Positions 2,012 through 61,236 of a stretch of 64,000 bases of DNA are shown here, piece by piece. Position 1 is the stretch's first letter; each line of letters opens with the position of its first letter. Origin of the DNA: Uliginosibacterium sp. 31-16 (GTDB lineage: Bacteria > Pseudomonadota > Gammaproteobacteria > Burkholderiales > Rhodocyclaceae); assembly GCF_030730865.1 (NCBI RefSeq), contig NZ_JAVALZ010000001.1, forward strand, positions 1,426,001-1,490,000, in the 5' to 3' direction. The notes under the pieces are model-generated. The model made no database searches. It saw only the letters and a program-made list of their open reading frames with translations, and was not told the origin of the DNA. A program made the position numbers and the translations under genes.

Positions 2012-3948
2012 GCGGCCACCTTGGTTTTTGTCTTGCGGTAACGCGCATCCAGTGCCGCGCACAGCCCGCCCAGCGCCATCAGCAGGCAACCGCCCCAGAT
2101 CCAGCTGACGAAGGGTTTGTAGTACAGGCGCAGCACCCAGCTGTCCGGCCCGACGGCTTCACCCAGCGAGACATACACATCGCGGAACAGGCCGGTATCA
2201 ATCGAGGATTCGGTCATCGGCATCTGGCGAGCTGTGTAGATACGCTTCTCCGGATGCAGGACATTGATCTGCCGGCCGTCGCGGGCGAGGCTGACCGTGG
2301 CCTGCGCGGCGACGTAGTTGGGGCCTTTGACTTCATTGACCCCGTCCAGCCGGAAATCGTAGCCCGCCAGCTGCGTGTTGCTGCCGATCTTCACGGTGAC
2401 GTCGACATTGGCCTCCAGCGTCTTCACCAGCGTCACGCCGATGATGAAGATGCCGATGCCCAGATGCGCCAGCCACATCCCCCACCACGAACCGGGGATG
2501 CCGGAGAGCCGCGCCCACAGGCCGTCTTCACCCTGCATGCGGGCCCATAGAAGCTGCACGTTGCCCGCCAGTACCCATGCCGCGAGAGCCAAACCCAGCG
2601 TACTTCTCCACGATGGATGCCCGGAGAGCCACGCCAGCAGCGCGCCTGCGAGCAGGCTTCCTGCAAACGCAGGCCAGAGGCGGCTCACCAGCGTGCCGAA
2701 AGCGTGATCCTTCCAGCGCACGAAGGGGCTGACGACCATCAGCAGCACGACCGGCGCCATCAGTGGCACGAACACGGCTTCGAAATAGGGCGGACCGACG
2801 GAGAGCTTGCCGCCGCCCAGTGCATCCATCAACAGCGGGTACAGCGTGCCGAGCAGCACCGTGGCGCACACCACGGCGAGTAGCACGTTGTTGGTCAGCA
2901 GCAGGGTTTCACGCGACAGCAGACCGAAGCGCCCGCCGCCCGCCAGCTTCGGGGCGCGCCAGGCATACAGCGCCAGCGAGCCGCCGATGACGATGACCAG
3001 CAGCGCAAGAATGAACACGCCGCGTTTCGGGTCGGTGGCAAACGCATGCACGCTGGTCAGCACGCCGGAACGCACGAGGAAAGTGCCGAGCAGCGACAGC
3101 GAGAAAGCCGAGATGGCCAGCAGCACCGTCCAGCTTTTGAAGGCACCGCGTTTCTCGGTGACCGCCAGCGAGTGGATCAGCGCGGTGCCGACCAGCCAGG
3201 GCATGAAGCTGGCGTTCTCCACGGGGTCCCAGAACCACCAGCCGCCCCAGCCCAGCTCGTAATACGCCCAGCCGGAGCCGACCGCGATGCCCAGCGTGAG
3301 GAACAGCCAGGCGGTGAGCGTCCACGGCCGTGACAGGCGTGCCCAGGCCACGTCGAACTGGCCGCCGATCAGCGCCGCGATGGCAAACGCGAAGGCCACC
3401 GAGAAGCCCACATAGCCCATGTACAGCAGCGGCGGATGGATGATCATCCCCGGGTCCTGCAGCAGCGGGTTCAGGTCGTTGCCTTCCGGTGCGCCCGGCA
3501 GCAGGCGGGTGAAGGGATTCGAGGTGATCAGCATGAAGGCCATGAAGCCCACGCTGACCAGTCCGAGCACGGCCAGCACGCGCGCCGAGAAAACTTCCGG
3601 CAGGCGCTTCGAGAAAGACACCGCAGCGGTCCAGCCGGTGAGCATCAGCCCCCACAGCAGCAGCGAGCCCTCGTGGCTGCCCCACACGGCAGTCAGGCGA
3701 TAGACCAGCGGCAACTGCGTGTTCGAATGCGAGGCGACGTAAGCCACCGAGAAATCGTTGTCGACAAAGGCCCAGGCGAGGCAGGCGAACGCCACCAGCA
3801 CCAGCACGAACTGCGCGCGTGCGGCCGGGCGGGCGACCGCCATCAGTGCCGCATCGCCACGCTGGGCGCCGAGCAGCGGCAGGCTGCCGAGCACGGCGGC
3901 GGTGACAAAGGCGAGGATCAGGGCAAAGTGGCCGAGTTCGGGGATCAT
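2008..3948 (-). CDS. ccmF: Haem lyase subunit CcmF
   Basis: A 646-residue polytopic membrane protein of full family length. It carries the CcmF signature WGSHEGSLLLW (residues 89-99), a conserved periplasmic histidine in IIHPPLLYMG (H171), and the WWD haem-handling segment WGGWWFWDPVENASFMPW (234-251). A large periplasmic loop lies before the C-terminal helix. CcmF takes haem from holo-CcmE and, with CcmH and CcmI, attaches it to apocytochrome c. It is separated from ccmE by 94 bases containing a REP-like hairpin. Confidence 0.97.
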   Translation of the reverse strand: MIPELGHFALILAFVTAAVLGSLPLLGAQRGDAALMAVARPAARAQFVLVLVAFACLAWAFVDNDFSVAYVASHSNTQLPLVYRLTAVWGSHEGSLLLWGLMLTGWTAAVSFSKRLPEVFSARVLAVLGLVSVGFMAFMLITSNPFTRLLPGAPEGNDLNPLLQDPGMIIHPPLLYMGYVGFSVAFAFAIAALIGGQFDVAWARLSRPWTLTAWLFLTLGIAVGSGWAYYELGWGGWWFWDPVENASFMPWLVGTALIHSLAVTEKRGAFKSWTVLLAISAFSLSLLGTFLVRSGVLTSVHAFATDPKRGVFILALLVIVIGGSLALYAWRAPKLAGGGRFGLLSRETLLLTNNVLLAVVCATVLLGTLYPLLMDALGGGKLSVGPPYFEAVFVPLMAPVVLLMVVSPFVRWKDHAFGTLVSRLWPAFAGSLLAGALLAWLSGHPSWRSTLGLALAAWVLAGNVQLLWARMQGEDGLWARLSGIPGSWWGMWLAHLGIGIFIIGVTLVKTLEANVDVTVKIGSNTQLAGYDFRLDGVNEVKGPNYVAAQATVSLARDGRQINVLHPEKRIYTARQMPMTESSIDTGLFRDVYVSLGEAVGPDSWVLRLYYKPFVSWIWGGCLLMALGGLCAALDARYRKTKTKVAA

Positions 3949-12783: not shown

Positions 12784-12810
12784 AAAACCGCCTCCGGGCG
12801 GTTTTGCTTT
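12784..12810 (+). terminator. Intrinsic terminator of the rhamnogalacturonan lyase
   Basis: The stem AAAACCGCC (12784-12792) pairs with GGCGGTTTT (12797-12805) around TCCG, then GCTTTTGG follows. This is a standard rho-independent terminator 71 bases after the stop codon. Confidence 0.85.
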
Positions 12811-12829
12811 TGGTTGTTCCGGTCATGAG

Positions 12830-12909
12830 CCCGCAAGCCGCTCCGCGCTTGCTTTTGCGCGAAGACATGCTGTAAACGCTTGCCGGGTGCGGCTCTTCAG
12901 CCTGTGCTC
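12830..12909. repeat. Two 40-nt units of the CTGAAGA/TCTTCAG repeat family
   Basis: The unit at 12870-12909 ends its first 31 bases with GGTGCGGCTCTTCAG, like the units at 46421 and 43328. The preceding 40 bases end in GAAGACATG, like other units. The rest of the 12714-13121 gap holds the lyase terminator and the rhlE leader; I see no further gene there. Confidence 0.55.
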
Positions 12910-13121: not shown

Positions 13122-14798
13122 ATGTCCTTTGCATCCCTCGGGCTCATCGAGCCCCTCGTCCGCGCCGTTACCGAGCGTGGCTACACTACCCCTACGCCCA
13201 TTCAGACCCAGGCCATTCCGGCCGTGCTGGGTGGTGGCGACCTGCTCGCCGGCGCGCAGACCGGCACCGGCAAGACCGCCGGTTTCACCCTGCCGCTGCT
13301 GCAACGCCTGACCGAAACTCCGGCCCGCAAGCCTGGCGCGATCCGCGCGCTGGTGCTGACGCCGACCCGCGAACTGGCCGCCCAGGTCGAAGAATCCGTG
13401 CGCCACTATGGTGTGCACCTGCCGCTCAAGTCCATGATGATGTTCGGCGGTGTGTCCATTAACCCGCAGATCACCCAGCTCAAGCGCGGTGTCGACATTC
13501 TCGTCGCCACGCCGGGCCGCCTGCTGGACCACGTGCAGCAGAAGACTGTCGATCTGTCCGGTGTCGAAATCCTCGTACTGGATGAAGCCGACCGCATGCT
13601 CGACATGGGCTTCATCCGCGACATCAAGCGCGTGCTGGCCCTGCTGCCGAAGCAGCGCCAGAACCTGCTGTTCTCCGCGACCTTCTCGGACGAGATCAAG
13701 GAGCTGGCCGACAGCCTGCTGAACAAGCCCGCGCTGATCGAAGTGGCGCGTCGCAATGCCACGGTCGAAGCCATCACCCAGCGCGTCATGCTGGTTGATC
13801 AGAAAGCCAAACGTCATCTGCTCGCGCATCTGATCAAGGAACACGCCTGGTTCCAGGTTCTGGTGTTCACACGCACCAAGCACGGTGCCAACCGGCTGGC
13901 CGAGCAGCTCACCAAGGGCGGCACTCCGTCCCTGGCGATCCACGGCAACAAGAGCCAGAACGCCCGTACCCGTGCGCTCGCCGAATTCAAGAGCGGCGAC
14001 CTGCAGGTGCTGGTGGCGACCGACATCGCCGCGCGTGGCATCGACATTTCCGAGCTGCCGCATGTGGTGAATTTCGAGCTGCCCAATGTGCCGGAAGATT
14101 ACGTGCACCGTATTGGTCGGACCGGCCGTGCCGGCTCCACCGGTGAAGCCCTGTCGCTGGTAGCGCCGGACGAAACCGGTTTCCTCAGGGACATCGAGAA
14201 GCTTACCCGCCGCACGATCGAGCGCGTAGTCGTGCCGGCTTTCGAGATTCCGGCCGGTGCTGCTGCTGAAGATGCGCAACCGCGCCCGCCGCGTCAGCCG
14301 CAAGGTCGTGGGCGTCAAGCCCAGGGCCAGCGCCGCGAAGGCGGCACACCGGCCAGTGCGCCGCGCAGCCGCTCCGGCAGCGCTTCTTCGGGCAGGTCTT
14401 CTGCACAGCCGCGCGCAGCCGGCGCTGGTGAAGGCCGTGCGCCGCAGAGTGAGGCACGGCGCGGATCTGCAGGCGCATCGTCCGGACAGCCGCGCGGAAC
14501 GGGCTCTTCCGGGCAGCCTCGTCGCTCAGGTCCGTCGGGTGCGGCTTCCGGGCAGGCACGTCATGGTTCCTCGCAAGGTGCCAATGGTCGTCCGCAGCGC
14601 AGCAATGCACCGCGTGGCGAAGCCAATGGCAATGTCGCGCGTCCGCAGCGTGAAGTGAATGGCAATGTACTGGCGCAGCCGCGGCGTGATGTTAATGGCA
14701 ATCGCGCCCAGCCGGCCCGTTCGGGCGAGAGCCAGGGCGGCTTGCGTGGCGCGTTCTCGCGTGGCATCAGTGCCTTGCGCCGCCTGAGCGACAGCTGA
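13122..14798 (+). CDS. rhlE: DEAD-box RNA helicase, RhlE type
   Basis: A 558-residue protein. The Q motif is [13 protein letters not shown], motif I is AQTGTGKT (45-52), motif Ia is PTRELAAQ, motif II is DEAD (154-157), motif III is SAT (185-187), and motifs V and VI are [11 protein letters not shown] and [10 protein letters not shown]. RhlE helicases remodel rRNA precursors and mRNA during ribosome assembly and at low temperature. The core ends near residue 370. The last 180 residues are a disordered R/G/Q/S-rich tail with short repeats ([31 protein letters not shown]) that probably bind RNA. The start codon follows GAGAGAAAA. Confidence 0.95.
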
Positions 14799-19213: not shown

Positions 19214-19373
19214 GGCAAATCCCGGGAGAGTGTTCTGCTCAGGCGAAAGATGGCTGAAGAGCCGCTTTGGCGGCCGATCTTGCGTGGGTATGCCTGAAAA
19301 ACCAGCAAGGGCCAAGGTCTTCGCTGGGCGTGCTTGCAGAGCCTTGCTGATGGCGGGTGTACAGGCAGGAGTG
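19214..19373. repeat. Four 40-nt units of the CTGAAGA/TCTTCAG repeat family
   Basis: Units begin at 19214, 19254, 19294 and 19334. The clearest starts with CTGAAGAGCCGC and folds as GCCGC-TTTG-GCGGC; the next starts CTGAAAAACC and ends AGGTCTTCGC. Each closes with a 9-base tail such as TGGGTATGC, TGGGCGTGC or GCAGGAGTG. The array fills the convergent gap between algR and the molybdopterin oxidoreductase. Confidence 0.7.
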
Positions 19374-30183: not shown

Positions 30184-30903
30184 TCAGATCATCCCGCCGT
30201 TGATGGAGATGACCTGTCCGGTGATGTAGGCCGCGGCGTCGGAAGCGAGGAAGGCGACCAGTTCGGCGACCTCTTCCGGCTGGCCGGCGCGTTTCATCGG
30301 CACCAGTTGCTTGATCGCGTCGGCATCAAAGACATCTTTCGTCATGTCCGAGGTGATGATGCCTGGCGCCACGGCGTTGACCGTGATGTTGCGGCTGGCC
30401 AGTTCCAGTGCCAGCGATTTGCTCGCAGCGTGCAACGCGCCCTTGGCGGCCGAGTAATTCACCTGGCCGCGGTTGCCGGTGATGCCGGCTATCGACGAGA
30501 TGCTGATGATGCGGCCCCAGCGCGCGCGGATCATCGGCATGGTGAGCGGCTGGGTCACATTGAAGAAGCCGTTGAGGGATACGTCGAGCACGCTGTCCCA
30601 CTGTGCACGGCTCATGCCGGGGAAGACGGCATCGTCGTGAATGCCGGCGTTGTTAACCAGAATCTGGATCGGACCTGCCTGCAGAGCCTCTTCCAGCGCG
30701 GATTGCGTGGCTTCCCCATCGCAGATGTCGAACTGCAGCGCCTCTGCGGACAGACCCTCTGCACACAGGCTCTGCGCAAGGCTCTGCGCGGCATCGAGAT
30801 TCTTGTTGGCGTGAATGATGACGTGCAGGCCGCAGCGGGCAAGCTTGCGGCAGATGGCCGCGCCAATGGCGCCACTGCCACCGGTAACGAGCGCGCGTTT
30901 CAT
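30184..30903 (-). CDS. fabG: 3-ketoacyl-ACP reductase, FabG type
   Basis: A 239-residue short-chain dehydrogenase. The Rossmann motif is VTGGSGAIG (6-14), then NNAG, and the catalytic S137-Y150-K154 (ISISSIAG and VNYSAAKG). The C-terminal GQVISINGGMI is typical of FabG. It is the last biosynthetic gene of the minus-strand pigment operon and probably reduces each ketoacyl intermediate of the aryl polyene chain. The 45-base gap to the dehydratase gene is small. Confidence 0.9.
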   Translation of the reverse strand: MKRALVTGGSGAIGAAICRKLARCGLHVIIHANKNLDAAQSLAQSLCAEGLSAEALQFDICDGEATQSALEEALQAGPIQILVNNAGIHDDAVFPGMSRAQWDSVLDVSLNGFFNVTQPLTMPMIRARWGRIISISSIAGITGNRGQVNYSAAKGALHAASKSLALELASRNITVNAVAPGIITSDMTKDVFDADAIKQLVPMKRAGQPEEVAELVAFLASDAAAYITGQVISINGGMI

Positions 30904-34182: not shown

Positions 34183-35001
34183 TTAACGTGAACGTCGCTC
34201 GGCGACTCGGTCTGGCAGAAAGGCGGGCACAAGCTGGCGCTCGGTCAGCGCCGCCAGCAGGCGTGGCAGTACCGCGAGAATCACCGGCTCGCCTGCCGGC
34301 GTGCGGGCGGCGTGCCCGTCGTGCAGCAGCAGGATGTCGCCTGCTGCCAGTCCACGGGTGAGGCGGGCCAGCACGGCATCGGCATCTCCCGTGCGGGTGT
34401 CATAGCCGCGCCGGGTCCAGCTCGCCAGATGCAGCCCGAGGCGCTGTAATGCCGGGTCGAGGAATGGGTTGCGCAGGCCCGCAAGCGCCCGGAAGTACTG
34501 CGGGCGTCGTCCGCTCAGGGCCGCCAGCGTGTCTTGCGCATCGCCGACTTCGCGTGCCCAGCCGCGCGGGCCATACAGTGAAGCGTGTTTGCGGTGATGC
34601 TGGCCATGGTTCTCGATGCGATGGCCCGCGGCAACAATCGCCTGTATCAGTGCAGGGTGCCTGGCGGCGCGCTCGCCGATGCAGAAGAACGTGGCACATG
34701 CGCGCTGCGAGGCGAGGATGGCCAGCACGCGCGGGGTGACTTCGGGGTCCGGACCGTCATCGATGGTGAGCGCCACTTCCTTGCGGGCGATGGCCTCGGC
34801 TGGCAAGCGGGTGAGGTTGGGGCCGAGCAGGCTGCAGCGCGGCAGCATGCCGGCGACGACCACGCCTGCATGGCTTGCCAGCAATATGCCCAGCGCCCAG
34901 GGCCAGGCGTCCGGTCGGGCAAGCCATCCTGCAAGCGCGCCAAGGTGCACCAGGGCCGACAGGAGGATGAACGGAGAGGGGCGCCAGGCGGGCTTCTTCA
35001 A
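34183..35001 (-). CDS. Polysaccharide deacetylase family protein (NodB domain)
   Basis: A 272-residue protein with two N-terminal membrane segments, then a NodB-type domain. Motif 1 is ALTIDDGPDPEVTP (about residues 78-90) and motif 2 is HRIENHGQHHRKHA. Motif 3 is altered (FRALAGLRNP in place of RxPxG). I placed the start at the TTG at 35001. GGGGAGG lies 4 bases upstream, and TTGA overlaps the hydrolase stop. Longer readings run into the hydrolase gene. A deacetylase inside an aryl polyene operon suggests head-group tailoring. Confidence 0.8.
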   Translation of the reverse strand: MKKPAWRPSPFILLSALVHLGALAGWLARPDAWPWALGILLASHAGVVVAGMLPRCSLLGPNLTRLPAEAIARKEVALTIDDGPDPEVTPRVLAILASQRACATFFCIGERAARHPALIQAIVAAGHRIENHGQHHRKHASLYGPRGWAREVGDAQDTLAALSGRRPQYFRALAGLRNPFLDPALQRLGLHLASWTRRGYDTRTGDADAVLARLTRGLAAGDILLLHDGHAARTPAGEPVILAVLPRLLAALTERQLVPAFLPDRVAERRSR

Positions 35002-35675
35002 GCTGCCTCCCCGGAGAGGCCCGCTGTGCGCGGCAGCGCAGCATGGTCCAGCCAGGATGCCCACAGTGCTTGCCAGACGGGCCAGTCGTGAGTCCCGGGC
35101 AGATACTCGACGCGGTCCGTTGGCAGCAGGCCGGCCAGCAGGCGCTGGTTGCGGATGAAGCGATCCTCGCTGCCACAACCGAAGCTCACCGGCAGCGGCG
35201 AACCCGCAGCGGCCTGCTCTACCAGCCAGCGCCAGAACACGCGCTCGTCGCCCTGCGCTGCAGCCGGCGTCGCAGACCAGGCCTGCGGGCCGCCAGCGGC
35301 GCGGATTTCGGCCACGATGTCGCCGGTGCCGGGGTAAGGCGCGAGGAGGTGAATGCCCGCCAGCTCCGCTGCGTGTTCGCTGGCATACAGCAGGGCATTC
35401 ATCGCGCCCAGCGAGATGCCGGCGAGCCAGATTGCGCGATAGCCGGCCGCGCGGGCGGGGCGGATCACGGCTTCATGCAGGCTGCTGACCACCGTGCGCG
35501 CCATGACATGGGTGTAGTTCAGATCGGTGACGAGGATGTCGGCAGCAATGCCCCGGCTGCGCACGGCTTCGATGAAACCGTGCTGCCCGAAGTCCTCCAG
35601 GGTCATCTCCGCACCGGGCAACAGCACCAGCAGGGTGTCCGGACGCGGGGCGAGGCAATCAGTCAGCGTGCGCAT
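34998..35675 (-). CDS. Alpha/beta hydrolase-like protein
   Basis: A 225-residue protein with the start LLVLLPGAEM, nucleophile elbow LAGISLGAMNAL (Ser in GISLG), an aspartate in FGCGSEDRFI, and a histidine in PGTHDWPVW. Together these form a plausible complete catalytic triad. No signal peptide is present. It overlaps the MMPL exporter gene by 17 bases at its start. The closest general class is thioesterase or esterase; a role in releasing the acyl chain is possible but unproven. Confidence 0.75.
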   Translation of the reverse strand: MRTLTDCLAPRPDTLLVLLPGAEMTLEDFGQHGFIEAVRSRGIAADILVTDLNYTHVMARTVVSSLHEAVIRPARAAGYRAIWLAGISLGAMNALLYASEHAAELAGIHLLAPYPGTGDIVAEIRAAGGPQAWSATPAAAQGDERVFWRWLVEQAAAGSPLPVSFGCGSEDRFIRNQRLLAGLLPTDRVEYLPGTHDWPVWQALWASWLDHAALPRTAGLSGEAA

Positions 35676-43228: not shown

Positions 43229-43247
43229 GTTGTCTGGAGGATGCTGT

Positions 43248-43367
43248 CTGAAGAGCCTCGCCCGGCGGCCTTCTTCAGATAGGCGTGCGGCAAATGATTG
43301 CGGGACGCAGGTCTTGCAGCAGGCATGCTGAAGACCTTTTCTGGATGCGGCTCTTCAGCTGCCTCCA
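43248..43367. repeat. Three 40-nt units of the CTGAAGA/TCTTCAG repeat family
   Basis: Units start at 43248, 43288 and 43328. The first and third run from CTGAAGA to TCTTCAG in 31 bases, with perfect 7-bp complementary ends. The middle one is degenerate but ends GGTCTTGCAG and carries the tail CAGGCATG. The array fills the gap between the convergent hpt and decarboxylase-like genes. Confidence 0.75.
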
Positions 43368-43373
43368 ATGTTG

Positions 43374-43757: not shown

Positions 43758-44154
43758 GTTCAGTCTCCATGGTTGCCGGTGGGGTGGAGATGCGTGCCGT
43801 GTCGCGATACCAGCGAACCTTGTCCGCCACGAAGCTGGCGAGCTCCTGCAGATGAGCGATTTCTGCCTCTACGCGGGCCAGATGGGTTTCCATCATGAGG
43901 CCACGTTCTGCATGGGTGCTGGTGCCTTGCCGGCGCAGTTCGGCGTAGTGCAGCATGTCTGCAATCGACATGCCGGTTTCACGCAGACGCATCAGGAAAC
44001 GCAGCCAGTCCATGTCCGCCGGGGTATAGCGCCGCCGTCCGCCCGCATCCCGCGCGACGTCGTGGATCAGGCCGATCCGCTCGTAATAGCGCAGGGTGTG
44101 GGGGCTCAGGCCGGTGCTTGCCGCGACGTGCTGAATGGTGAGTTGCGTGTCCAT
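43699..44154 (-). CDS. MerR family transcriptional regulator
   Basis: A 151-residue regulator. The winged-helix motif is [26 protein letters not shown], then [24 protein letters not shown] and a long dimerisation helix ([18 protein letters not shown]). No metal-binding cysteine cluster is present at the C-terminus, so it is more like the organic-effector or stress-responsive MerR types. I chose the ATG at 44154, which suits the MerR-type promoter directly upstream. A longer ORF starts at 44181 within that promoter. Confidence 0.88.
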
Positions 44155-44160
44155 GGAGAC

Positions 44161-44191
44161 ATTCTCGAAGTTTGAGTGCACTCGAAGTCAA
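44161..44191 (-). promoter_or_regulatory. MerR-type promoter with 19-bp spacer
   Basis: On the minus strand, TTGACT (44191-44186) and GAGAAT (44166-44161) are 19 bp apart, the elongated spacing typical of MerR-activated promoters. The spacer contains the perfect palindrome GAGTGCACTC (44174-44183). The predicted transcription start falls at or beside the regulator's ATG, implying a leaderless transcript and autoregulation of the regulator/decarboxylase operon. Confidence 0.75.
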
Positions 44192-44230
44192 GCACGTACT
44201 GAAGCTCCCCGCGTGTCAGCGCGGCGAGCT

Positions 44231-45148
44231 TCAGGCGTGCAGGTGAGCAGGCCCGGCCGGACGGGTGGACAGGAAAATCCCGCTGATGATCAGGGCCATG
44301 CCAGCCAGGTGGTAGGGCAGAATCGATTCGCCAAGGAATACGGCCGACAGCAGCGGTGTGGCCACCGGCATCAGGTGGATGAACAGCCCGGCCGGCGCGG
44401 CACCAACCTGCGCCACCGCGCGGTTCCAGAACACGTAGCCAAGGAACGCTGGCAGGGTGCCGGTATAGACGATGCTCGCCAGTGCCGCCGGGGTGGCGTG
44501 GATGACACGGCCGGCGGCCAGCTCCCACAGATAAAAAGGCGTCAGCCCCGCCAGGCCGATGGCGGTCAGCAGGGCCAGCAGCAGCATGGGAGGCAGCCCG
44601 GCCGGCCGGCGTCCGAGCAGCAGGGTATAGCCCGCCCACACGAACACCGAGAGCATGATCCACAGGTCACCGGGATTGAAGCTGAGGCTGGCCAGACGAG
44701 CCAGCTCACCATGCGCCACGATGACCGTCACCCCGGCCAGCGAGACGCTCACGCCCAATGCCTCCAGCGCGCGCAAACGCTTGCCGAGAAAGGCGCAGCC
44801 CAGCCCGATGATGACGATGGGGATGAAGGAATTGAGCAGCACGCCGTTGGTGGCGGTGGTGTACTGCAGGCCGAAATAGGCCAGGGTGTTGTACCCGGTG
44901 ATGCCCAGCAGCGCCAGGGCCCCGAGGATGCGCCAGTGTGCCCGCAGCGCCGGCCAGGCCAGCTTGCGATGCGGCCAGGCAAAAGGCAGGGTGCAGGCCA
45001 GCGCCAGCGTCCAGCGCCAGAAAGCCAGTGCCACCGGCGGCACATCACCGCGTGCGCCGCGTCCCACCACCCAGTTGCCGGACCAGAACAGGGCGGTCAG
45101 GACCAGTAGCAGCCAGGGGTTGTCGAAGCGCCGGAAAAAGGAAGGCAT
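44231..45148 (-). CDS. DMT superfamily (EamA) transporter
   Basis: A 305-residue membrane protein with ten helices in two EamA repeats. The first repeat starts LVLTALFWSGNWVVGRGA, and the second contains LWIMLSVFVWAGYTLLLGR and VPVATPLLSAVFLGE-type sequence (LMPVATPLLSAVFLGESIL). These are drug/metabolite exporters. The upstream palindrome at 45162-45184 lies 14 bases before its ATG, so it may be co-regulated with the arabinanase gene. Confidence 0.88.
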   Translation of the reverse strand: MPSFFRRFDNPWLLLVLTALFWSGNWVVGRGARGDVPPVALAFWRWTLALACTLPFAWPHRKLAWPALRAHWRILGALALLGITGYNTLAYFGLQYTTATNGVLLNSFIPIVIIGLGCAFLGKRLRALEALGVSVSLAGVTVIVAHGELARLASLSFNPGDLWIMLSVFVWAGYTLLLGRRPAGLPPMLLLALLTAIGLAGLTPFYLWELAAGRVIHATPAALASIVYTGTLPAFLGYVFWNRAVAQVGAAPAGLFIHLMPVATPLLSAVFLGESILPYHLAGMALIISGIFLSTRPAGPAHLHA

Positions 45149-45161
45149 ACAGGGACGGGGT

Positions 45162-45184
45162 GTTGTAAGAAAAATACCTACATT
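45162..45184 (-). promoter_or_regulatory. Second copy of the pectin-gene operator
   Basis: Read on the minus strand this site matches the lyase site at 10488-10510 at 17 of 23 positions, with the full core TGTAGG-N2-TT-N-TTCTTACAA. It lies between divergent genes, 146 bases before the arabinanase ATG and 14 bases before the DMT transporter ATG. The dyad arms are TTGTAAGA and ACCTACA. Confidence 0.7.
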
Positions 45185-45195
45185 TGTTCGAGCGA

Positions 45196-45219
45196 TTTTC
45201 TTTCTTCATTGAAAGAAAA
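45196..45219. promoter_or_regulatory. Inverted repeat upstream of arabinanase
   Basis: Perfect 9-bp arms TTTTCTTTC (45196-45204) and GAAAGAAAA (45211-45219) around TTCATT. It lies 111 bases before the arabinanase start, next to the shared operator. It could be a second regulator site; it is too far from either gene's 3' end to be a terminator. Confidence 0.5.
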
Positions 45220-45330
45220 AACAGCAATTCTGGTCATCGGAGCAGGGTATTGCTGTGCTAGCGTGCGCAGGCTGGGCAGAAAAATGAGTCCGAAAACGGA
45301 CCATACCATTCAATCAAGGAGACAGAAATC

Positions 45331-46272
45331 ATGCAATCCATCTTTCGCAAGGCGCTGCTCGCGGCCGCGCTCGCCGGTACCACACTGAGCGCAGCCGCCG
45401 AGCATTGGGCCCTGAGTGGCGACCTCGGTGTTCACGATCCGGCCATCATCAAGGAAGGCAATACCTGGTGGACCTTCTCCACCGGCGAGGGCATCCAGGT
45501 CCTTTATTCCGGTGACGGCAAGGCGTGGAGCCGTGGTGTGAAGGTCATCGGCTCGCGCCCCTCGTGGTGGAGCACCTACGTGCCGAAACACTCCGGCCTC
45601 GATGTCTGGGCGCCGGACGTGGTCAATTACAACGGCAAGGTCTGGCTGTACTACTCGATCTCGACTTTCGGCTCCAACACTTCGGCGATCGGCCTGGCCT
45701 CGGCCACCAGCATTGCCAAGGGTGACTGGTCCGACAAGGGCAAGGTCATCAGCACCAAGGCCGGCAGCAACGATTACAACGCGATTGATCCGAACTTCAC
45801 CCTGGACGCCAGCGGTCAGCCTTATCTGGTGTTCGGCTCCTGGTTCTCCGGCATCAAGATCGTCAAGCTCGACAAGAGCACGATGAAGCCGACCGGCTCG
45901 GTGTCGACCATCGCCAAGCGCAGCGGCGGCATCGAAGGTCCGGCCATCGTTTATCGCGACGGCTATTACTACCTCTTCGTGTCGATCGACAAGTGTTGCT
46001 CGGGCACGTCCAGCACCTACAAGGTGGCCTATGGCCGCGCGACCAAGATCACCGGTCCGTATGTCGACAAGAACGGCAACAAGATGACCGACGGCTATTC
46101 GAGCGTGCTGGATGCTGGCAATTCGCGCTGGGTCGGCCCCGGCGGTCAGGACATCTATCGCGAAAACGGCTACAGCATCATTGCCCGCCATGCCTACGAC
46201 GCGACCGCCAATGGCGCGCCCAAGCTGCTGATCAGCGACCTGAAGTTCTCCGGTGGCTGGCCGACATACTGA
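45331..46272 (+). CDS. Endo-alpha-1,5-L-arabinanase, family GH43
   Basis: A 313-residue secreted enzyme. The signal peptide ends near SAAA (residue 23). The five-bladed propeller carries the GH43 catalytic triad: D36 in GVHDPAII, D153 in AIDPNF, and E202 in IEGPAIV. LDVWAPDVVNYNGKVWLYYS is typical of arabinanases of the Arb43A type, and the C-terminal GGQDIYRENGYSIIARHAYD supports this. It would cut arabinan side chains of pectin. AAGGAGACAG precedes the ATG. A terminator follows. Confidence 0.93.
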   Translation: MQSIFRKALLAAALAGTTLSAAAEHWALSGDLGVHDPAIIKEGNTWWTFSTGEGIQVLYSGDGKAWSRGVKVIGSRPSWWSTYVPKHSGLDVWAPDVVNYNGKVWLYYSISTFGSNTSAIGLASATSIAKGDWSDKGKVISTKAGSNDYNAIDPNFTLDASGQPYLVFGSWFSGIKIVKLDKSTMKPTGSVSTIAKRSGGIEGPAIVYRDGYYYLFVSIDKCCSGTSSTYKVAYGRATKITGPYVDKNGNKMTDGYSSVLDAGNSRWVGPGGQDIYRENGYSIIARHAYDATANGAPKLLISDLKFSGGWPTY

Positions 46273-46289
46273 TTGCTCCTGCCCTGGAA

Positions 46290-46326
46290 AAAACGCCGCG
46301 TCAGCTCATGCCCGACGCGGCGTTTT
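46290..46326 (+). terminator. Intrinsic terminator of the arabinanase gene
   Basis: The stem AAAACGCCGCGTC (46290-46302) pairs with GACGCGGCGTTTT (46314-46326), followed by CATTTC. It lies 18 bases after the stop. Confidence 0.9.
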
Positions 46327-46340
46327 CATTTCTGTACCTT

Positions 46341-46460
46341 TTGTAGATCCGCTTCTGGCAAGGCTCTGTGCGTATGCAGTCTGGCGATGTCCGGCTGTAT
46401 TGGCTCTTGCGGCAGGCTGGCTGGAGATGACCGTCCGGTGCGGCTCTTCAGGTCGGTGCG
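46341..46460. repeat. Three tandem 40-nt units of the CTGAAGA/TCTTCAG repeat family
   Basis: Units begin exactly at 46341 (TTGTAGATCCGC), 46381 (CTGGCGATGTCC) and 46421 (CTGGAGATGACC). They share GGCTCT near position 23-28, and their 9-base tails are GTATGCAGT, GCAGGCTGG and GTCGGTGCG. The last unit covers the stop codon of the FHA-EAL gene, which ends in the TGA of CTGAAGA on the minus strand. Confidence 0.75.
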
Positions 46461-47563
46461 AATAGCTTGTCTGCGGGAATCGGCTTGCCGGTGAGGAAGC
46501 CCTGAATCAGCTGGAAGCCCATCTCGCGGCAGATTTCGGCTTCGGCCTCCATCTCGATGCCTTCCGCCAGCGGCACCGAACCCAGATCCAGCACCAGCTT
46601 GACCAGATCCCGCACGACGCGACGCTTGCGCTCGCTGGCCAGATGGATGTCGTGCAGCAGCCCCATGTCGAATTTCACGAAATGCGCAGGCGCCTCGCCG
46701 AGTTCGTTCAGGCGGGCCTGGCCGGCGCCGAAGTCGTCATAGGCGAAGCGCACCCCGATGTCGCGGAAGCGCGCGGCCAGCTCCTTGAGCCGATCGGGTT
46801 CGGTCACTGCCGTTTCGTGGATCTCGATCACCAGATCCAGATCCGGCATGTCGCGGCGCAGGCTGACGACGGATTTGAAGAATTCCTCGCTGAAGGTTTC
46901 CTTCGGATGGGTATTGGCAAACAGCGGATAGCCCCTGAGGTGGGGGGCGAGGGCGGCGATGCCGAATTTGCGGAAAGCCACCGACAGTTCGACTTCGCGA
47001 TCCAGAGCGCTGGCCAGCTCGAACAGGCGGATCGGGGAAACCGGCAGCAGCGGATGATTGGCTCGGCCGAGCAACTCGTAAGCGTAGATCTTGCCGGTGT
47101 GCGCTTCGACAATCGGCTGGGCTGCGCCGGACATGCCGTGACCATCCAGCAGTGCGAGGAACTCCGCCTCATTCGGGACGAACAGTTCCGAGAGCGCCAT
47201 GCCATTGGGCACCAGCATGGTGTGCATGTCGCTGGCGGAGAGGATGCGGGTCTGATCCGAGACGCGGATGCGCAAACGGAATTCGGCCGTGCCGAAATGC
47301 ACGATGTCGTTTTCGTCGAGCAGGCACGAGCCTTCGATGCGCCGCCGGTTCACGAAGCTGCCATTGGTGCTGTTCATGTCGGTCAGGCGGATGCGGCCCG
47401 AGATGTCCGGCGTGAGGAGCGCGTGATGGCGCGAGAGGCCGAGCGTTGCCACCACCAGATCATTTTCCGGGTCGCGGCCGACACGGAAAGGCAGGTGGGT
47501 GATGTTGTAGGTGACGTGCGAGCCATCTGCTGCGATGGACTCCAGGAACCACTGCCTTTCCAC
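46448..47563 (-). CDS. FHA domain-EAL domain protein (c-di-GMP phosphodiesterase-like)
   Basis: A 371-residue protein. The N-terminal FHA domain (about 20-98) has FRVGRDPENDLVV, SRHHALL and NSTNGSFVN, which read phosphothreonine. The EAL domain (about 130-371) has AYELLGR (degenerate EALxR), FANTHP, IEIHETA, YDDFGAG, VKFD, EGIE and IQGFLTGKP. The metal and catalytic residues appear kept, so phosphodiesterase activity is plausible, though EAL itself is YELL. No membrane segment is present. The gene's stop lies inside the 40-nt repeat array. Confidence 0.88.
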   Translation of the reverse strand: MERQWFLESIAADGSHVTYNITHLPFRVGRDPENDLVVATLGLSRHHALLTPDISGRIRLTDMNSTNGSFVNRRRIEGSCLLDENDIVHFGTAEFRLRIRVSDQTRILSASDMHTMLVPNGMALSELFVPNEAEFLALLDGHGMSGAAQPIVEAHTGKIYAYELLGRANHPLLPVSPIRLFELASALDREVELSVAFRKFGIAALAPHLRGYPLFANTHPKETFSEEFFKSVVSLRRDMPDLDLVIEIHETAVTEPDRLKELAARFRDIGVRFAYDDFGAGQARLNELGEAPAHFVKFDMGLLHDIHLASERKRRVVRDLVKLVLDLGSVPLAEGIEMEAEAEICREMGFQLIQGFLTGKPIPADKLFAPT

Positions 47564-47640
47564 GCTGCGCTCCGGGTTAGGGGATGAAGGGACGGTGTTC
47601 TTGATTGCTCACAGGCAAGTATCGGCCAGTCCGGTCCGAA

Positions 47641-47679
47641 CTTGCAGACCCGTAAGGGTAGTGCCACACAGTCTGCAAG
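47641..47679 (-). terminator. Hairpin after the MATE transporter gene
   Basis: Arms CTTGCAGAC (47641-47649) and GTCTGCAAG (47671-47679) sit directly beyond the MATE stop, with a smaller inner stem (ACCC/GGGT). No clear T-run follows, so termination is tentative. Confidence 0.5.
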
Positions 47680-47680
47680 G

Positions 47681-49039: not shown

Positions 49040-49174
49040 TGGGGCGTGGCGGGTGAAGCGTGGCAAGTGACAGGTACGGCGGCAGGCCCCAAACGTATCA
49101 CGGATCACTTGTCCCCTGTCACGCGCTGCCCTTCCCGTAGAATGCCGGCATTCCCCATCGCCCGGCGCAGCGCC

Positions 49175-50605
49175 ATGCCCAACACCTTTTACTGGCACGA
49201 CTACGAAACCTTCGGCATCTCGACGCGGCGCGACCGTCCGGCCCAGTTCGCCGGCATCCGCACCGATGCGGAGCTGAACGAGATCGGCAAGCCGCTGATG
49301 ATCTACTGCCAGCCGGCGCCGGATTATCTGCCGGACCCGGAATCCTGCCTGCTCACCGGCATCCTGCCGCAGACCTGTGTGGCCCAGGGCCTGCCCGAGC
49401 ATCAATTCGCCGCTGCGATCGAGCGTGAGCTGGGCGAGCCCGGCACCGTGGGTCTGGGCTACAACACCATCCGCTTCGATGACGAAGTCACGCGCTTCAT
49501 GTTCTGGCGCAACCTGATTGATCCGTATGCGCGCGAGTGGCAGAACGACTGCGGCCGCTGGGACCTGCTCGACGTGGTGCGCACCACCTGGGCGCTGCGG
49601 CCCGAAGGCATCGAATGGCCGAAGCACGAGGACGGGCGCCCGTCCTTCAAGCTCGAACACCTGACCAAGGCCAACGGCCTGACCCACGAGGCGGCGCACG
49701 ACGCGCTGTCCGACGTGCATGCCACCATCGCGCTGGCCCGCCTGATCAAATCGAAGCAGCCAAGGCTGTGGGATTTCTGTCTGGCCCTGCGCAAGAAGGA
49801 TGCGGTGCTCAAGGAAATCGACCTGATCAACCCCAAGCCGCTGCTGCACATCTCCGGCATGTTCGGCCCGGAGCGCGGTTGCATGGCGATTGTCTGGCCG
49901 CTGGCGCAGCACCCGACGAACAAGAACGAAATCATCGTGTGGGATCTGGCTTTCGATCCGGCCGAGCTCGCCGGCCTGTCGGCCGAGGAAATCCGCACGC
50001 GGATGTTCACCAAGGCGGCCGATCTGCCCGAAGGCGTCAGCCGTCTGCCGGTGAAGACCATCCACATCAACAAGTCGCCGATCGTGGTCAGCAATCTCAA
50101 GATCCTCAGCCCCGAGGTGATTGCGCGCTGGAATATCGACCTGCCGCAGGCCATGGCGCATGCCGACATTGCACGGGGCTTGCCGGCGCTGACGGGCAAG
50201 TGGGCCGCCGTGTTCAAGCGCCCGGCGGATGAAGCGGCGGCGGATGTTGATGAAGACCTCTACGGCGGTTTCGTCGGCAATACCGATCGGCGCACCCTGA
50301 ATCAGTTGCGCAGCCTCGCGCCGGAAGCGCTGGCGCGGGAGCACGTGAGTTTTCAGGATGCACGCCTCGAAGAAGTCCTCTTCCGCTATCGCGCGCGCAA
50401 TTTCCCGGCCAGTCTGACCGAGGCCGAGTTGGAGCGCTGGGAAGCCCACCGTGTGGCCTGCCTGCACGAAGGCGCCGGTGGTGCCCGCTCGCTGGCGGCT
50501 TTCTTCGAGCAGATCGACACGCTCTCCGAGACGGCCGACGAGCGCGGCGAGGCGATTCTCGGCGCGCTTTACGACTACGCAGAATCCATTGCGCCCCCAT
50601 TCTGA
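49175..50605 (+). CDS. sbcB: Exodeoxyribonuclease I
   Basis: A 476-residue DEDDh exonuclease. FYWHDYETFG carries D9 and E11, YNTIRFDDEVTRFMFWRN is the ExoI signature, and HDALSDVHATIALA holds the later acidic and histidine residues. An SH3-like and C-terminal helical domain follow. It degrades single-stranded DNA 3' to 5'. The stop codon TGA lies inside the first 40-nt repeat unit (CTGAAGACCCGC). The length equals the E. coli enzyme (475). Confidence 0.95.
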   Translation: MPNTFYWHDYETFGISTRRDRPAQFAGIRTDAELNEIGKPLMIYCQPAPDYLPDPESCLLTGILPQTCVAQGLPEHQFAAAIERELGEPGTVGLGYNTIRFDDEVTRFMFWRNLIDPYAREWQNDCGRWDLLDVVRTTWALRPEGIEWPKHEDGRPSFKLEHLTKANGLTHEAAHDALSDVHATIALARLIKSKQPRLWDFCLALRKKDAVLKEIDLINPKPLLHISGMFGPERGCMAIVWPLAQHPTNKNEIIVWDLAFDPAELAGLSAEEIRTRMFTKAADLPEGVSRLPVKTIHINKSPIVVSNLKILSPEVIARWNIDLPQAMAHADIARGLPALTGKWAAVFKRPADEAAADVDEDLYGGFVGNTDRRTLNQLRSLAPEALAREHVSFQDARLEEVLFRYRARNFPASLTEAELERWEAHRVACLHEGAGGARSLAAFFEQIDTLSETADERGEAILGALYDYAESIAPPF

Positions 50606-50721
50606 AGACCCGCATGTGGCGGTCTTCTCCGGTTTACCATGCTGAAGAGTCGCGCCCTGCCTTGCTGAGCGCGATGCCTGCCTGAAGAGGCTTGCCGGAA
50701 GCGGCTTTACAGGCAGAGGTT
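50602..50721. repeat. Three tandem 40-nt units of the CTGAAGA/TCTTCAG repeat family
   Basis: CTGAAGA occurs exactly at 50602, 50642 and 50682. The first unit folds as GAAGACCCGC and GCGGTCTTC around four bases. The third ends GCGGCTTTACAG. The first overlaps the sbcB stop and the third abuts the LysR stop at 50721, so the array spans the entire convergent gap. Confidence 0.85.
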
Positions 50722-51849: not shown

Positions 51850-52845
51850 ATGACCCCCACTGCACAGACCCCCTTCCTGGCTCGTCCCCTCGTCCTCTTC
51901 GTGCTCGCCAGTTTCTGCGGCCTGCTGTGGGGCAGCGCCTATCCGGCGATCAAGCAGGGCTACGCGCTGTTTCACATCGTCTCCAGTGACGTGGCCAGCC
52001 AGATGGTCTTTGCCGGCGTGCGCTTCATTGCCGCCGGGTCCTTGCTTCTTGCTGGCGCCTGGGTCATCGGCTGGCAGGTGCGACTCGAACGCGAGCATTT
52101 CGCCGGCGTCGTCGGCCTCGGCCTGAGCCAGACCGCGTTGCAGTATGTGTTCTTCTACATCGGGCTGGCCAATGCCACCGGCAGCAAAAGCTCGATCATG
52201 AACGCCACCGGCACCTTCTTCTCGGTGCTGCTGGCGCATTTCATCTATCACAACGACCGCATCAGCGGCCGCCGTGCGCTGGGCTGCCTGATCGGCTTTG
52301 CCGGCGTGGCCGCGGCCAACTACGGCCCCAGCCTGTTCGAGCCGGATTTCACTTGGGCTGGCGAGGGCTCCATCGTGCTGGCGGCGTTCCTTCTTTCCGC
52401 CGCCTCCATCTACGGCAAGCGTCTGTCGCAGCGCCTCAACGCGGTCGTCATGACCGCGTGGCAGATGGGCATTGGCGGCGTGGTCCTGACGGTGCTCGGC
52501 CTTCTTGGCGGCGGAGCCCTGCAAGGCTTCACCCCGGCCAGTGTCGGGCTGATGGCTTACATGGCCGTGCTGTCGGCTCTGGCCTTCGGCATCTGGAGCG
52601 CGCTGCTCAAATACAACCCGGTGGGGCGCGTGAGCATCTTCAATTTCCTCGTACCGGTGTTCGGCGTCGCCCTGTCCGCCATCTTCCTCGGCGAAGAGGT
52701 GCTGGTGGCGAAAAATGCGGTCGCCCTGTGCCTCGTGTGCGTCGGCATCTGGCTGGTCAGCGCCGAGCGGCGCAAGGCGGCGCAGCCGGCGCGGCAGGAC
52801 ATCCCGCGCAAGGATCAGCCCGCAGCCGGCCAGGCGCGGGCCTGA
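51850..52845 (+). CDS. DMT superfamily (EamA) transporter
   Basis: A 331-residue membrane protein with ten helices. The first repeat starts FCGLLWGSAYPAIKQGY and has IGLANATGSKSSIMNATGTF. The second has YGKRLSQRLNAVVMTAWQMG and FLVPVFGVALSAIFLGEEV. The long 5' region from 51679 to the ATG could be read as extra coding sequence, but it lacks family character. The LysR gene upstream probably controls it. Confidence 0.9.
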   Translation: MTPTAQTPFLARPLVLFVLASFCGLLWGSAYPAIKQGYALFHIVSSDVASQMVFAGVRFIAAGSLLLAGAWVIGWQVRLEREHFAGVVGLGLSQTALQYVFFYIGLANATGSKSSIMNATGTFFSVLLAHFIYHNDRISGRRALGCLIGFAGVAAANYGPSLFEPDFTWAGEGSIVLAAFLLSAASIYGKRLSQRLNAVVMTAWQMGIGGVVLTVLGLLGGGALQGFTPASVGLMAYMAVLSALAFGIWSALLKYNPVGRVSIFNFLVPVFGVALSAIFLGEEVLVAKNAVALCLVCVGIWLVSAERRKAAQPARQDIPRKDQPAAGQARA

Positions 52846-52858
52846 GCGCCACGCCTGC

Positions 52859-52938
52859 CTGGAGAGCCGCGCTGGGCGGACTTCTCCGGGCGGGTGTGCT
52901 GAAGATGCCCGTCAGAAGCCGCTTACCAGCGCATCCTT
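52859..52938. repeat. Two tandem 40-nt units of the CTGAAGA/TCTTCAG repeat family
   Basis: Units begin at 52859 (CTGGAGAGCCGC) and 52899 (CTGAAGATGCCC). The first has the same CTTCTCCGG close as the unit at 50602. The second overlaps the last codons and stop of the DUF4139 gene (stop 52912-52914), so part of the repeat is translated. Confidence 0.75.
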
Positions 52939-58687: not shown

Positions 58688-58736
58688 AAAAGGCCGTAAG
58701 CCGGAAGGCGCGCTCGCGAAGGCCGTCCGAGGCCCG

Positions 58737-58816
58737 GCGAGGCGCCGCGTCCGGCGCTGGTTTTCAGGCAGACATGCCGCAGAGGCCCGCCCGATGCGGC
58801 TTTCCGGCTGCCATCG
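58737..58816. repeat. Two 40-nt units related to the CTGAAGA/TCTTCAG family
   Basis: Units at 58737 and 58777. The first 31 bases end in GGTTTTCAG and CGGCTTTCCGG, with the tails GCAGACATG and CTGCCATCG. The match is weaker at the 5' ends than in the other arrays. Like 12830, this array is between co-directional genes. Confidence 0.5.
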
Positions 58817-58887: not shown

Positions 58888-61236
58888 ATGAGAATTTTCC
58901 TGCCTGTGCTGTTGGTGATCCTGCCTGCCCTGTGCTGGGCGCAGAGTGATGGCGAACTGGTCGCCGCGCGCGCAAAGCAGTTCCAGCAACAATTGGCCGA
59001 CGCGCATCCACGCCTGCTGATCCGCCCGGCTGACCTGCCCGCCTTGCGTGAATTCATCAAGACCCTGCCGGCGCAAGCGGAGGGTGCCACGCTGGCGAAA
59101 CTGGCCCTGCCGCCGCTGGACAATCGTGCCCTGATCCCCGAGCCGAAAGCCGCGAAGAACGGCACGCCGGAAGGTGCGAAACAGTGGGAAGCGGGCTACA
59201 AGGCGGCGAACGAAACCGCCGCCTGGGCGCAGCGTTACGCGTTGGCCTGGCTGCTTACTGAAGACCCCGCGTATGGCCGCGAGGCGGCGCGCTGGCTGCT
59301 GCATCTGGCGAGCTGGAATATCACGCGCGACACCTATCGCACCAACGACGAGCTTTTCATCCAGTCCCTGCGGCCGATGATCTTTGCGTATGACTGGGCG
59401 TATGCCGCGCTCACGCCGGAGGAGCGGGCGACGGTTTCCAAGGCGCTGATTGCCCGCATGGAAATTCTGGCGGCGCAGGTGCAGCCAAAATTCAGCCTGA
59501 GTCGCGCGGCAGTTCCGGACAATGGCCTGAGTCACCCGATGCGTTTCATCTCCACGCTGGGGCAGGGCGGTCTGGCGCTGTTTCACGAAACGAAAGAGGC
59601 GCCCGGCTGGCTGGCCTGGAGCTATGAGTATTACCTGCGTCAGTTTCCGGTGTGGGGTGGCTCGGCGGGGGGCTGGGCGGAGGGGCTGAACTACTGGAAC
59701 ACCGGGATCAGCCAGCATCAGCGCTTCCTCGAAGGCATGGCGCTGCTGGGCTTCAACGAGCCCTTGCAGAAACCCTTCTGGCGCAACACGCCCTACTTCG
59801 GCGTGTATAGCCAGATGCCGTATCCCGCCTCGTTCTTTGGCGATCTCAGCAACATCAACGCGCCCTCCGGCAGCATGGCGCTGATGATGGAAAAATTCGC
59901 GGTGCTCAATGCCGATCCCTATCCGCTGGCCTATGCCAGGGCGCTGCGGCAGAAGCCGCCGACCAGCTTCAATTACTACAGCTACGATGGCATCGACGCG
60001 ATTCTGCAGCGCTTCCGCACGGCGCAGGCCAAGCTGCCGGAGGTGAGGCTCGCCGAGCTGCCGCAGAGCCGCTACTTTGACGACATTGGCGTGGTGACGA
60101 TGCACTCCGCGCTGGGCGATGCGGCGAATGACATCATGCTGGGCTTCCGCTCCAGCCCGCAGGGCTCGGCCTCGCATGGTTTCGCGGATCAGAACAGTTT
60201 CGTGCTCAATGCCTTCGGCCAGCCGCTGGCGATCAACTCCGGCTACCGGGAGTTCTATGACAGCCCGCATCACGTTGGCTGGAGCCGCCAGACCAAATCC
60301 AAGAGCGCCATTCTCTTCGGTGGCGAGGGTCAGCGCATCAAGGATGCCAGCGCCAGTGGCGCGATCACGCGCTTTGCCGATGGCGCGAGCTACAGCTTCG
60401 CCACGGGGGATGCCACGCGCGCCTATGCGCCACATGCTACGCGCGCGCTGCGGCATGTCTTCTTTGTCGGCCGCCGCTACTTCGTGATGCTCGATGAAGT
60501 GGCGGCATCCGAACCGGTCGCTTTTCAGTGGCAACTGCATGCTCGCAGCGAGATGCAACTGGCTCCGGAGCGAGCCGAGATCACGCTGCAGCAGAAAGAC
60601 GCCCGGCTTGCCGTGCGCTTCCTGCAGCCTGCGCCCGCTGCGCTGGTTTTCCGCCAGACCGATGCCTTTGAGCCGCCGGTGATCGAGAGCTATCGGACGA
60701 AGATGCCGAACGAATGGCATGTGACGGCCGAAACGAAAGCCGCCGCGCCGCAGCAGGAATTTCTGACCCTGCTGTATCCGTGGAAGGCATCCCCGGAGAG
60801 CGGCGCTGCGCCTGCGTCTGCGAGCATGCCTGCCGCGAAGGGCCATGCCATGAGGCTCGCCGGGCAGGGGGGTGAGGAAGTCGTGCTCATGGCGCGCGAA
60901 GCGGAGAAACGGGCCGAGGCGGGCGGCTGGGCGCTGGCCGGCATGGCGGCCAGCTTCGCGACACAAAGCGATACCCTGCGTTTTACACTGGTTGAGGCAA
61001 CCGGGCTGAGCGGTCCGCTCAGCCTGAAGGCCAGTATGCCGGTGAGTCTGGAAGGTGTGCGCAATGCCAATGGGCTCAACATTGTGGCCAGCCTGCGCGA
61101 GCCGCTGACGCTGCAATTGCGGCCGGGCTTTGCCGTCAGCAGCGTGACGGGCGCACAAGGCTGGCAGCAAGACGCCGATGGCGGCGTGGTGGTGACGCTT
61201 GCTGCCGGGCCGGTACGGCTCAGTCTGCTGAAGTGA
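58888..61236 (+). CDS. Heparinase II/III family protein (polysaccharide lyase-like)
   Basis: A 782-residue secreted protein. The signal peptide (LLVILPALCWA) is cleaved near residue 19. An alpha/alpha toroid region follows (HPRLLIRPADLPALREFI, AQRYALAWLLTEDPAYGREA, LFIQSLRPMIFAYDWAY, GGWAEGLNYWNTGI). The heparinase II/III beta-sandwich follows, with SSPQGSASHGFADQNSFVL, GYREFYDSPHHVGWSRQT and FFVGRRYFVMLDEV. Conserved His and Tyr residues suit beta-elimination of uronate polysaccharides. The substrate is not readable. The ATG at 58888 gives the cleanest signal peptide. It is a single-gene unit. Confidence 0.87.
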   Translation: MRIFLPVLLVILPALCWAQSDGELVAARAKQFQQQLADAHPRLLIRPADLPALREFIKTLPAQAEGATLAKLALPPLDNRALIPEPKAAKNGTPEGAKQWEAGYKAANETAAWAQRYALAWLLTEDPAYGREAARWLLHLASWNITRDTYRTNDELFIQSLRPMIFAYDWAYAALTPEERATVSKALIARMEILAAQVQPKFSLSRAAVPDNGLSHPMRFISTLGQGGLALFHETKEAPGWLAWSYEYYLRQFPVWGGSAGGWAEGLNYWNTGISQHQRFLEGMALLGFNEPLQKPFWRNTPYFGVYSQMPYPASFFGDLSNINAPSGSMALMMEKFAVLNADPYPLAYARALRQKPPTSFNYYSYDGIDAILQRFRTAQAKLPEVRLAELPQSRYFDDIGVVTMHSALGDAANDIMLGFRSSPQGSASHGFADQNSFVLNAFGQPLAINSGYREFYDSPHHVGWSRQTKSKSAILFGGEGQRIKDASASGAITRFADGASYSFATGDATRAYAPHATRALRHVFFVGRRYFVMLDEVAASEPVAFQWQLHARSEMQLAPERAEITLQQKDARLAVRFLQPAPAALVFRQTDAFEPPVIESYRTKMPNEWHVTAETKAAAPQQEFLTLLYPWKASPESGAAPASASMPAAKGHAMRLAGQGGEEVVLMAREAEKRAEAGGWALAGMAASFATQSDTLRFTLVEATGLSGPLSLKASMPVSLEGVRNANGLNIVASLREPLTLQLRPGFAVSSVTGAQGWQQDADGGVVVTLAAGPVRLSLLK

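Follow-up and report, generated by a model that had tools for sequence, protein, structure and literature searches.

A 111-bp element of three palindromic units in 40-bp phase recurs between and within the genes of Uliginosibacterium sp. 31-16

The window is a stretch of 64,000 nucleotides of the genome of Uliginosibacterium sp. 31-16 (Rhodocyclaceae; contig NZ_JAVALZ010000001.1, positions 1,426,001 to 1,490,000). At 46341..46451 it carries an element of 111 bp in a 175-bp gap between two convergent genes, 45331-46272 (+, GH43) and 46448-47563 (-, FHA-EAL), according to Pfam. The orthologous gap of a congener, G002, measures 48 bp and has no element. The elements of the window, with their scores, are the following.

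2581..2691, no strand: 111-bp element within ccmF (2008-3948, -), codons 420-456; score about 71.4-71.8
12790..12900, no strand: element with two units (12830, 12870), downstream of gene 10569-12713 (+); score 25.4, first unit -32
14442..14552, no strand: element within a DEAD-box helicase gene (13122-14798, +), beyond the Pfam domains; score 43.1
19254..19364, no strand: 111-bp element in a convergent gap, position 19214 lying outside it; score 43.9, unit at 19214 -40.1
30679..30789, no strand: element within gene 30184-30903 (-); score 34.6
34971..35081, no strand: weak element at a gene junction, with a poor third unit; score 28.0
43248..43358, no strand: 111-bp element in a convergent gap; score 76.6
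46341..46451, no strand: 111-bp element with units 46341-46371, 46381-46411 and 46421-46451; score 66.5
50602..50712, no strand: 111-bp element adjoining the 3' end of a LysR-type gene (50721-51620, -; Pfam); score 84.4
52819..52929, no strand: element in a convergent gap, with good units at 52859 and 52899; score 54.9, first unit -13
58697..58807, no strand: weak element with two units (58737, 58777); score 16.5, first unit -51
60793..60903, no strand: weak element within gene 58888-61236 (+), with a poor third unit; score 24.4

The worn first unit of 52819..52929 overlaps the 3' end of an EamA gene (Pfam). Two other repeats were seen close to elements: a 36-bp tandem repeat at 14625-14714, in the C-terminal part of the DEAD-box helicase gene and near 14442-14552, and a different palindrome (GGATTCCGGCCTTCGCCGGAATGACG) at 58657-58686, which adjoins the weak element at 58697 and resembles one beside an element of locus L108.

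Units were scored with a symmetric position weight matrix of 31 nt, for which 864 kb of this genome served as the training set (the first 400 kb of each of two contigs, C1 and C2, and the window). The matrix scans the genome on which it was trained, so that the scores of members are somewhat inflated; its controls were order-1 Markov sequence, 744 kb of loci from relatives and synonymous-codon shuffles. A level of 13.3 is passed by five sites in 864 kb of Markov sequence. The units score 14.1, 2.3 and 30.5 at 46341, 46381 and 46421; 26.1, 9.4 and 29.6 at 50602, 50642 and 50682; 31.7, 4.8 and 29.3 at 43248, 43288 and 43328; 27.9 and 23.1 at 52859 and 52899; 5.9 and 27.8 at 12830 and 12870; 16.0 and 28.1 at 58737 and 58777. 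Judged against 13.3, the middle units and the unit at 12830 would not stand alone. A preliminary description of this DNA had placed units at all these positions, where they were indeed found, and an array of four units from 19214. The latter has three units, at 19254, 19294 and 19334 (15.9, 8.9 and 15.8), and the position 19214 scores -40.1. The same description had located the repeats in intergenic gaps, to which they are not restricted: the elements at 2581, 14442, 30679 and 60793 lie within genes.

Each array is one element of 111 bp, made of three palindromic units of 31 bp separated by two spacers of 9 bp. In the consensus of 70 elements, which starts with CTGAAGA and ends with TCTTCAG, the outer units repeat each other in inverted orientation (CTGAAGAGCCGC...GCGGCTCTTCAG), the unit between them is weaker and the flanking columns are weakly conserved. 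The half-site CYGNAGA occurs six times per element, as three inverted pairs with a period of 40 bp. The alignment of 35 elements by MAFFT has no gap. In gapless alignments a single base occupies columns 7, 25, 27, 87 and 105 in 95-99 percent of the elements, and columns 22, 24, 48, 51 and 56 hold at most 0.12 bits. Pairwise identity among the 70 elements is 0.55 on average and 0.71 at most, and thus no recent copies are seen.

The 864 kb contain 304 units, compared with 5 in Markov sequence of equal length. Pairs of units are found 75 times at an offset of 40 bp and 70 times at 80 bp, versus 1, 1, 2 and 1 times at 39, 41, 79 and 81 bp, which bears out the strict 40-base phase noticed in the window. 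The number of units is fixed: the share of 141 elements with a unit scoring above 0 is 0.82, 0.89 and 0.84 at positions 0, 40 and 80, and 0.00 at both -40 and +120, where a fourth unit would lie. The open array of units that had been proposed therefore gives way to a fixed element of three units, even if there are copies with two good units, including three in the window (12830, 52859 and 58737). The expected excess of identity at lag 40 is present in the intergenic DNA of 1.26 Mb of the genome (0.2761 vs 0.2599 +- 0.0034 for the rest of the range 25 to 60, where no lag exceeds 0.2690). Lag 40 thus stands 4.8 standard deviations above the rest. Masking the elements that score above 20 brings lag-40 identity to background (0.2601 vs 0.2585). 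A repeat in coding sequence had been discounted on the ground that a period of 40 is not divisible by 3, and the coding copies, 39 in number, are indeed spread over the three frames (12, 18 and 9). The element had also been thought to belong to no named family; no Rfam family matches the window at the gathering score.

The family extends over the genome, as had been supposed: 240 elements were found in 1.26 Mb (32% of the genome), which extrapolates to about 680 in the 3.9 Mb. Of these 240, 219 are clear (score above 20), with 173 intergenic, 44 coding and 2 partly coding, and in the sampled chromosome there is on average one clear copy per 5-6 kb. The counts of context and spacing are based on the clear elements, leaving aside the 21 of 240 that score 20 or less, and on genes called with a codon-score caller rather than taken from an annotation. 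In the 1.26 Mb minus C2:1-100 kb, elements occupy 77 of 136 gaps between convergent genes, 83 of 778 between co-directed genes and 10 of 134 between divergent ones. For gaps of 111-200 bp the figures are 45/49, 19/120 and 0/40, respectively, and none of the 69 divergent gaps shorter than 200 bp is occupied. Genes often take their stop codon from the edge of an element: within 10 bp the commonest offset is -4 (the TGA of CTGA), with 18 cases. A search for an autoregulated protein took those non-coding elements scoring above 40 for which every 3' end is over 100 bp away (18 of 146); among their flanking genes a small regulator-like protein at C2:284684 stood out by eye, with nothing that links it to the elements. 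The region C2:1-100 kb (loci L085-L089) holds 3 elements, versus 63 in C2:100-400 kb, and its GC content is 55.7-58.4 percent versus 61 percent in the 864-kb sample. Judged by its GC content, it is probably acquired DNA which the elements have not colonised. A plasmid-borne family was also considered; one element compared with 72,556 plasmid records gave no match at an E-value of 0.1.

The genome's own coding DNA (746 kb) has 37 sites above 5, 26 above 20 and 11 above 40; the relatives' loci (744 kb) have 5, 1 and 0. Three runs of synonymous-codon shuffling gave 1, 3 and 3 sites above 20, versus 26 real ones, and some of the weak coding copies may therefore be due to chance. The gene ccmF, which encodes a full CcmF_C domain (E 7.3e-129, Pfam), illustrates how such a site came about. 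At the stretch of the element, read in the same register, its 19 orthologues score from -17.7 to -57.0; 16 of the 19 alignments are free of gaps, and the other 3 have a gap of two residues. The stretches homologous to 30679..30789 in loci L170 and L163 score -41.5 and -61.1. The comparison was extended to 28 host genes with elements above score 30, of which 10 had a homologous stretch and 9 could be read in register, the best 6 of the 19 ccmF homologues being taken. For these nine genes, ccmF included, none of the 16 homologous stretches, which are 35-84 percent identical, has the motif: they score below 0 where the genome's own copies score 31-71. In the region of the element 12 of the 16 are gap-free, and 4 have a gap of one residue. 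Homologues that are nearly gapless and score negative show that these coding sites arose by substitution in place; on the evidence of these alignments, the compared coding copies are not insertions.

The coding copies are not placed at random either. For the 39 elements located in genes with good coding scores, the median distance to the closest intergenic element is 4203 bp. Random coding positions give 2106 bp, and none of 4000 draws attained the 4203 bp observed. Sub-threshold sites, used as a control, lie at a median of 1679 bp. Intervals shorter than 3 kb hold 2.2 coding copies per 100 kb, and those longer than 15 kb hold 7.7. With the intergenic copies held fixed, the coefficient of variation of spacing is 0.734 with the real coding copies versus 0.853 with random ones (P 0.0005). 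Taken by themselves, the intergenic copies show no more evenness than a null which keeps the type and size of the gaps (P 0.18), so that the evenness comes from the coding copies. C2:1-100 kb was left out of these spacing tests. The distances and the variation of spacing both indicate that the coding copies fill the long intervals.

Other genomes were scanned with a model of the genome's own elements (R1) and a model of the dialect of G034, a member of another genus (R2), the best 62, 19 or 12 candidates being scored per genome, so that weak carriers may have escaped. At E <= 1e-4, R1 has matches in at least 15 of 199 genomes of the family, own included, and R2 in at least 16 of 199, own included; together they reach at least 19. 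In an order-wide draw, R1 matches at least 4 of 300 genomes, own included. The first stretches of G034, G005, G019, G026 and G031 were picked around R1 matches, and unpicked stretches of G034 and G005 were counted apart. G034 carries 40 elements in 447 kb, and 21 in 296 kb of unpicked stretches. In the latter, 5 of 7 convergent gaps of 111-400 bp and none of 21 divergent ones are occupied, and pairs of units occur 4 times at 40 bp, twice at 80 bp and at most once at any other offset. A second Rhodocyclaceae genus therefore has the same architecture and placement with a consensus of its own, that is, a dialect. G005, the nearest relative by CcmF (84 percent), has 9 weak copies in 322 kb, and 3 in 251 kb of unpicked stretches. 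The congener G002 shows no pairs at offsets of 40 or 80 in 400 kb, with one marginal match (score 4.6), and its genome scan gave one R1 place among the candidates scored. It thus appears that a relative lives almost without elements.

The preliminary description read the units as hairpins and suggested, among other roles, the insulation of convergent transcription or the protection of mRNA 3' ends. A hairpin of RNA or single-stranded DNA, which would act as a bidirectional terminator, an mRNA 3' stabiliser or a processing site, would agree with the location at gene ends, and 5 of 8 chosen elements fold with z below -2. The two arms of a unit do not behave like a stem, however: the bases that vary on both arms change independently. 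For seven pairings (within each unit, across each spacer, between the outer units and over the whole element), pairing in 196 elements differs from that of shuffled partners by -0.7 to +1.2 percentage points (z -1.75 to 2.32), and thirteen single pairs give z values of at most 1.91 in the same 196. In the alignment A1 (35 elements), the observed pairing is equalled or exceeded by 488 of 500 shuffles, and A2, the alignment of the second dialect (23 elements), likewise shows no pairing covariation. Among the single pairings included in the coupling analysis, 15-17, 29-43 and 31-81 have p < 0.05; the top couplings are between adjacent columns (20-21, 51-52, 60-61 and 91-92). Adjacent bases there switch jointly among a few words (GG, AA and CT at columns 20-21). 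The arms are therefore complementary because both are conserved, and not by pairing; couplings of adjacent bases and independent variation of the arms would fit a readout of duplex DNA. The fold of 46341-46451 is no better than that of shuffles (z 0.18). As for intrinsic terminators, defined by a stable hairpin and a T run, the 43000-59000 part of the window has 26 terminator-like sites, two of them (43207-43228 and 46308-46323) within 25 bp of elements and none inside the five elements there. Since copies also lie within genes, RNA-level insulation and mRNA 3' protection are disfavoured, and a hairpin function is very improbable. A REP/BIME-like or MITE-like mobile repeat that inserts at the 3' ends of genes would account for hundreds of dispersed copies at these ends and for the inverted termini. 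It seems quite unlikely, in view of several observations. No pair exceeds an identity of 0.71 among the 70 own elements, or of 0.76 among the 40 of G034. The flanks of 141 elements are no more identical than shuffled pairs for lengths of 2-6, 8 and 9, which excludes transposition with target-site duplication and sets the element apart from MITEs. Y1 transposase genes are present in 27 of 37 genomes without any visible link to the elements; two (PF01797) are found in the own genome (G000) and two in the nearly element-free G002. Orthologous gaps can be read both ways. The two usable ones in G002, which align poorly, are 127 and 152 bp shorter and have no element, and 50 of 57 convergent gaps in G002 are shorter than 111 bp, versus 60 of 136 in the own genome; many intergenic copies may therefore have come with added DNA. 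The five compared in G005, also poorly aligned, differ by 164, 61, 30, 15 and -5 bp, with no constant 111. In the gap that differs by 164 bp both species have an element; that of G005 (L123:9593) corresponds in position to the own element C1:122747, with diverged letters, and the other four gaps score at most 1.0. The self-spreading element suggested earlier is therefore disfavoured, since close copies and target-site duplications are lacking and the compared coding copies formed in place; intergenic copies could nonetheless have arrived as insertions.

Uptake sequences accumulate by molecular drive in Haemophilus and Neisseria. The main rival reading is of this kind: the element would be a signal for genetic exchange, DNA that bears it being preferentially taken up or transferred, and sites would be spread out because one per fragment is sufficient. 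It would explain the origin in place within coding stretches, the enrichment at gene ends, the small number of elements in C2:1-100 kb, the dialects, the patchy occurrence and the spread-out coding copies. According to the parts of the sources used here, the USS has a relatively even distribution and a full motif of 31 bp (PMC7811141), the DUS is 10-12 nt long with a spacing that matches conversion fragments (PMC2397512), and uptake sequences are under-represented in acquired DNA (PMC7811141, PMC2397512). Within that account, the element resembles them in being over-represented, spread-out, patchy by species, divided into dialects and scarce in probably acquired DNA, and it shares the inverted arrangement at gene ends. 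With its 111 columns and six half-sites at fixed spacing in three phased palindromes, it nevertheless differs from motifs of 10-31 bp, and we regard an exchange signal as unlikely, though less so than mobility or hairpin formation.

As described in the relevant passages of PMC3733652, REP/BIME sequences (repeats with GTAG or CGTC) are palindromes with many copies, which for the most part lie between genes that are convergent or co-directed, and sometimes in genes. The element is similar to them in that its copies are palindromic, lie at 3' ends, are rare in divergent gaps and sometimes fall in genes. On that description it differs by a consensus (70 elements) without a GTAG or CGTC end, by the absence of stem covariation and of recent copies, by its design of three units in 111 bp and by compared coding copies which are not insertions; REP with RAYT is disfavoured by the missing tag. 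The BRE of Bordetella and other Betaproteobacteria have, in the portion of PMC3110155 considered, a unit of about 90 bp, a variable number of tandem copies and at most 29 copies per genome. Like the element they are betaproteobacterial, mostly intergenic, sometimes in genes and built of tandem units, but the size of the unit, the tandem number and the copies per genome separate the two, a distinction made against the description of BRE only. In the sections of PMC5217627 that concern spaced motif pairs, these are palindromic and near gene ends (44 convergent, 4 divergent and 59 co-oriented in one genome). They are single short pairs with 21-125 copies, for which those sections report neither a 40-bp phase nor an origin in place. 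Membership in REP, MITE, uptake sequences, terminators or Rfam families fails on at least one feature in each case. A search of the open-access literature found no description of the element family.

On balance, we propose with a probability of about 0.5 that the element is a duplex docking site with six half-sites for a putative oligomeric DNA-binding protein, whose likeliest role would be in chromosome organisation. Conservation of given positions without pairing, together with the strict phase and the two-fold symmetry, points to a protein that would bind six half-sites of duplex DNA. Three dimers of the protein side by side would be the simplest occupancy. The short single sites matS, parS and KOPS act on the chromosome as sequence-specific duplex sites. 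The element would be like them in being a sequence-specific duplex site, and differs in having three linked palindromes and hundreds of copies. The origin in place and the filling of gaps suggest a force that rewards one site per several kilobases. Chromosome organisation and a gene-exchange drive both supply such a force, and we favour organisation in view of the length and composite nature of the site and of its concentration at the ends of convergent transcription. The sites favour the 3' ends of genes and the gaps between convergent genes, and have evolved within genes in long stretches that lack such copies; they may serve as topological or nucleoid anchors in transcriptionally quiet DNA. 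A broader version of this docking-site proposal, to which we give somewhat less than an even chance, is that a system particular to the lineage sets 111-bp docking arrays of three palindromes along the whole chromosome, one per 5-6 kb, that selection builds new arrays in genes by point mutation where a stretch is too long, and that the putative protein and its sites have co-evolved into genus dialects in Rhodocyclaceae.

Long DNA motifs are usually assumed to spread by copying, whereas here a composite site of 111 bp arose repeatedly in place within coding DNA. No description of a force behind such gap-filling 111-bp sites was found in the open-access literature. The gap-filling positions imply a strong force, dependent on spacing, that acts on the whole chromosome; its source may be a protein that organises the chromosome or a drive linked to gene exchange. 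The dialects would then offer a natural experiment on the co-evolution of a protein and its sites.
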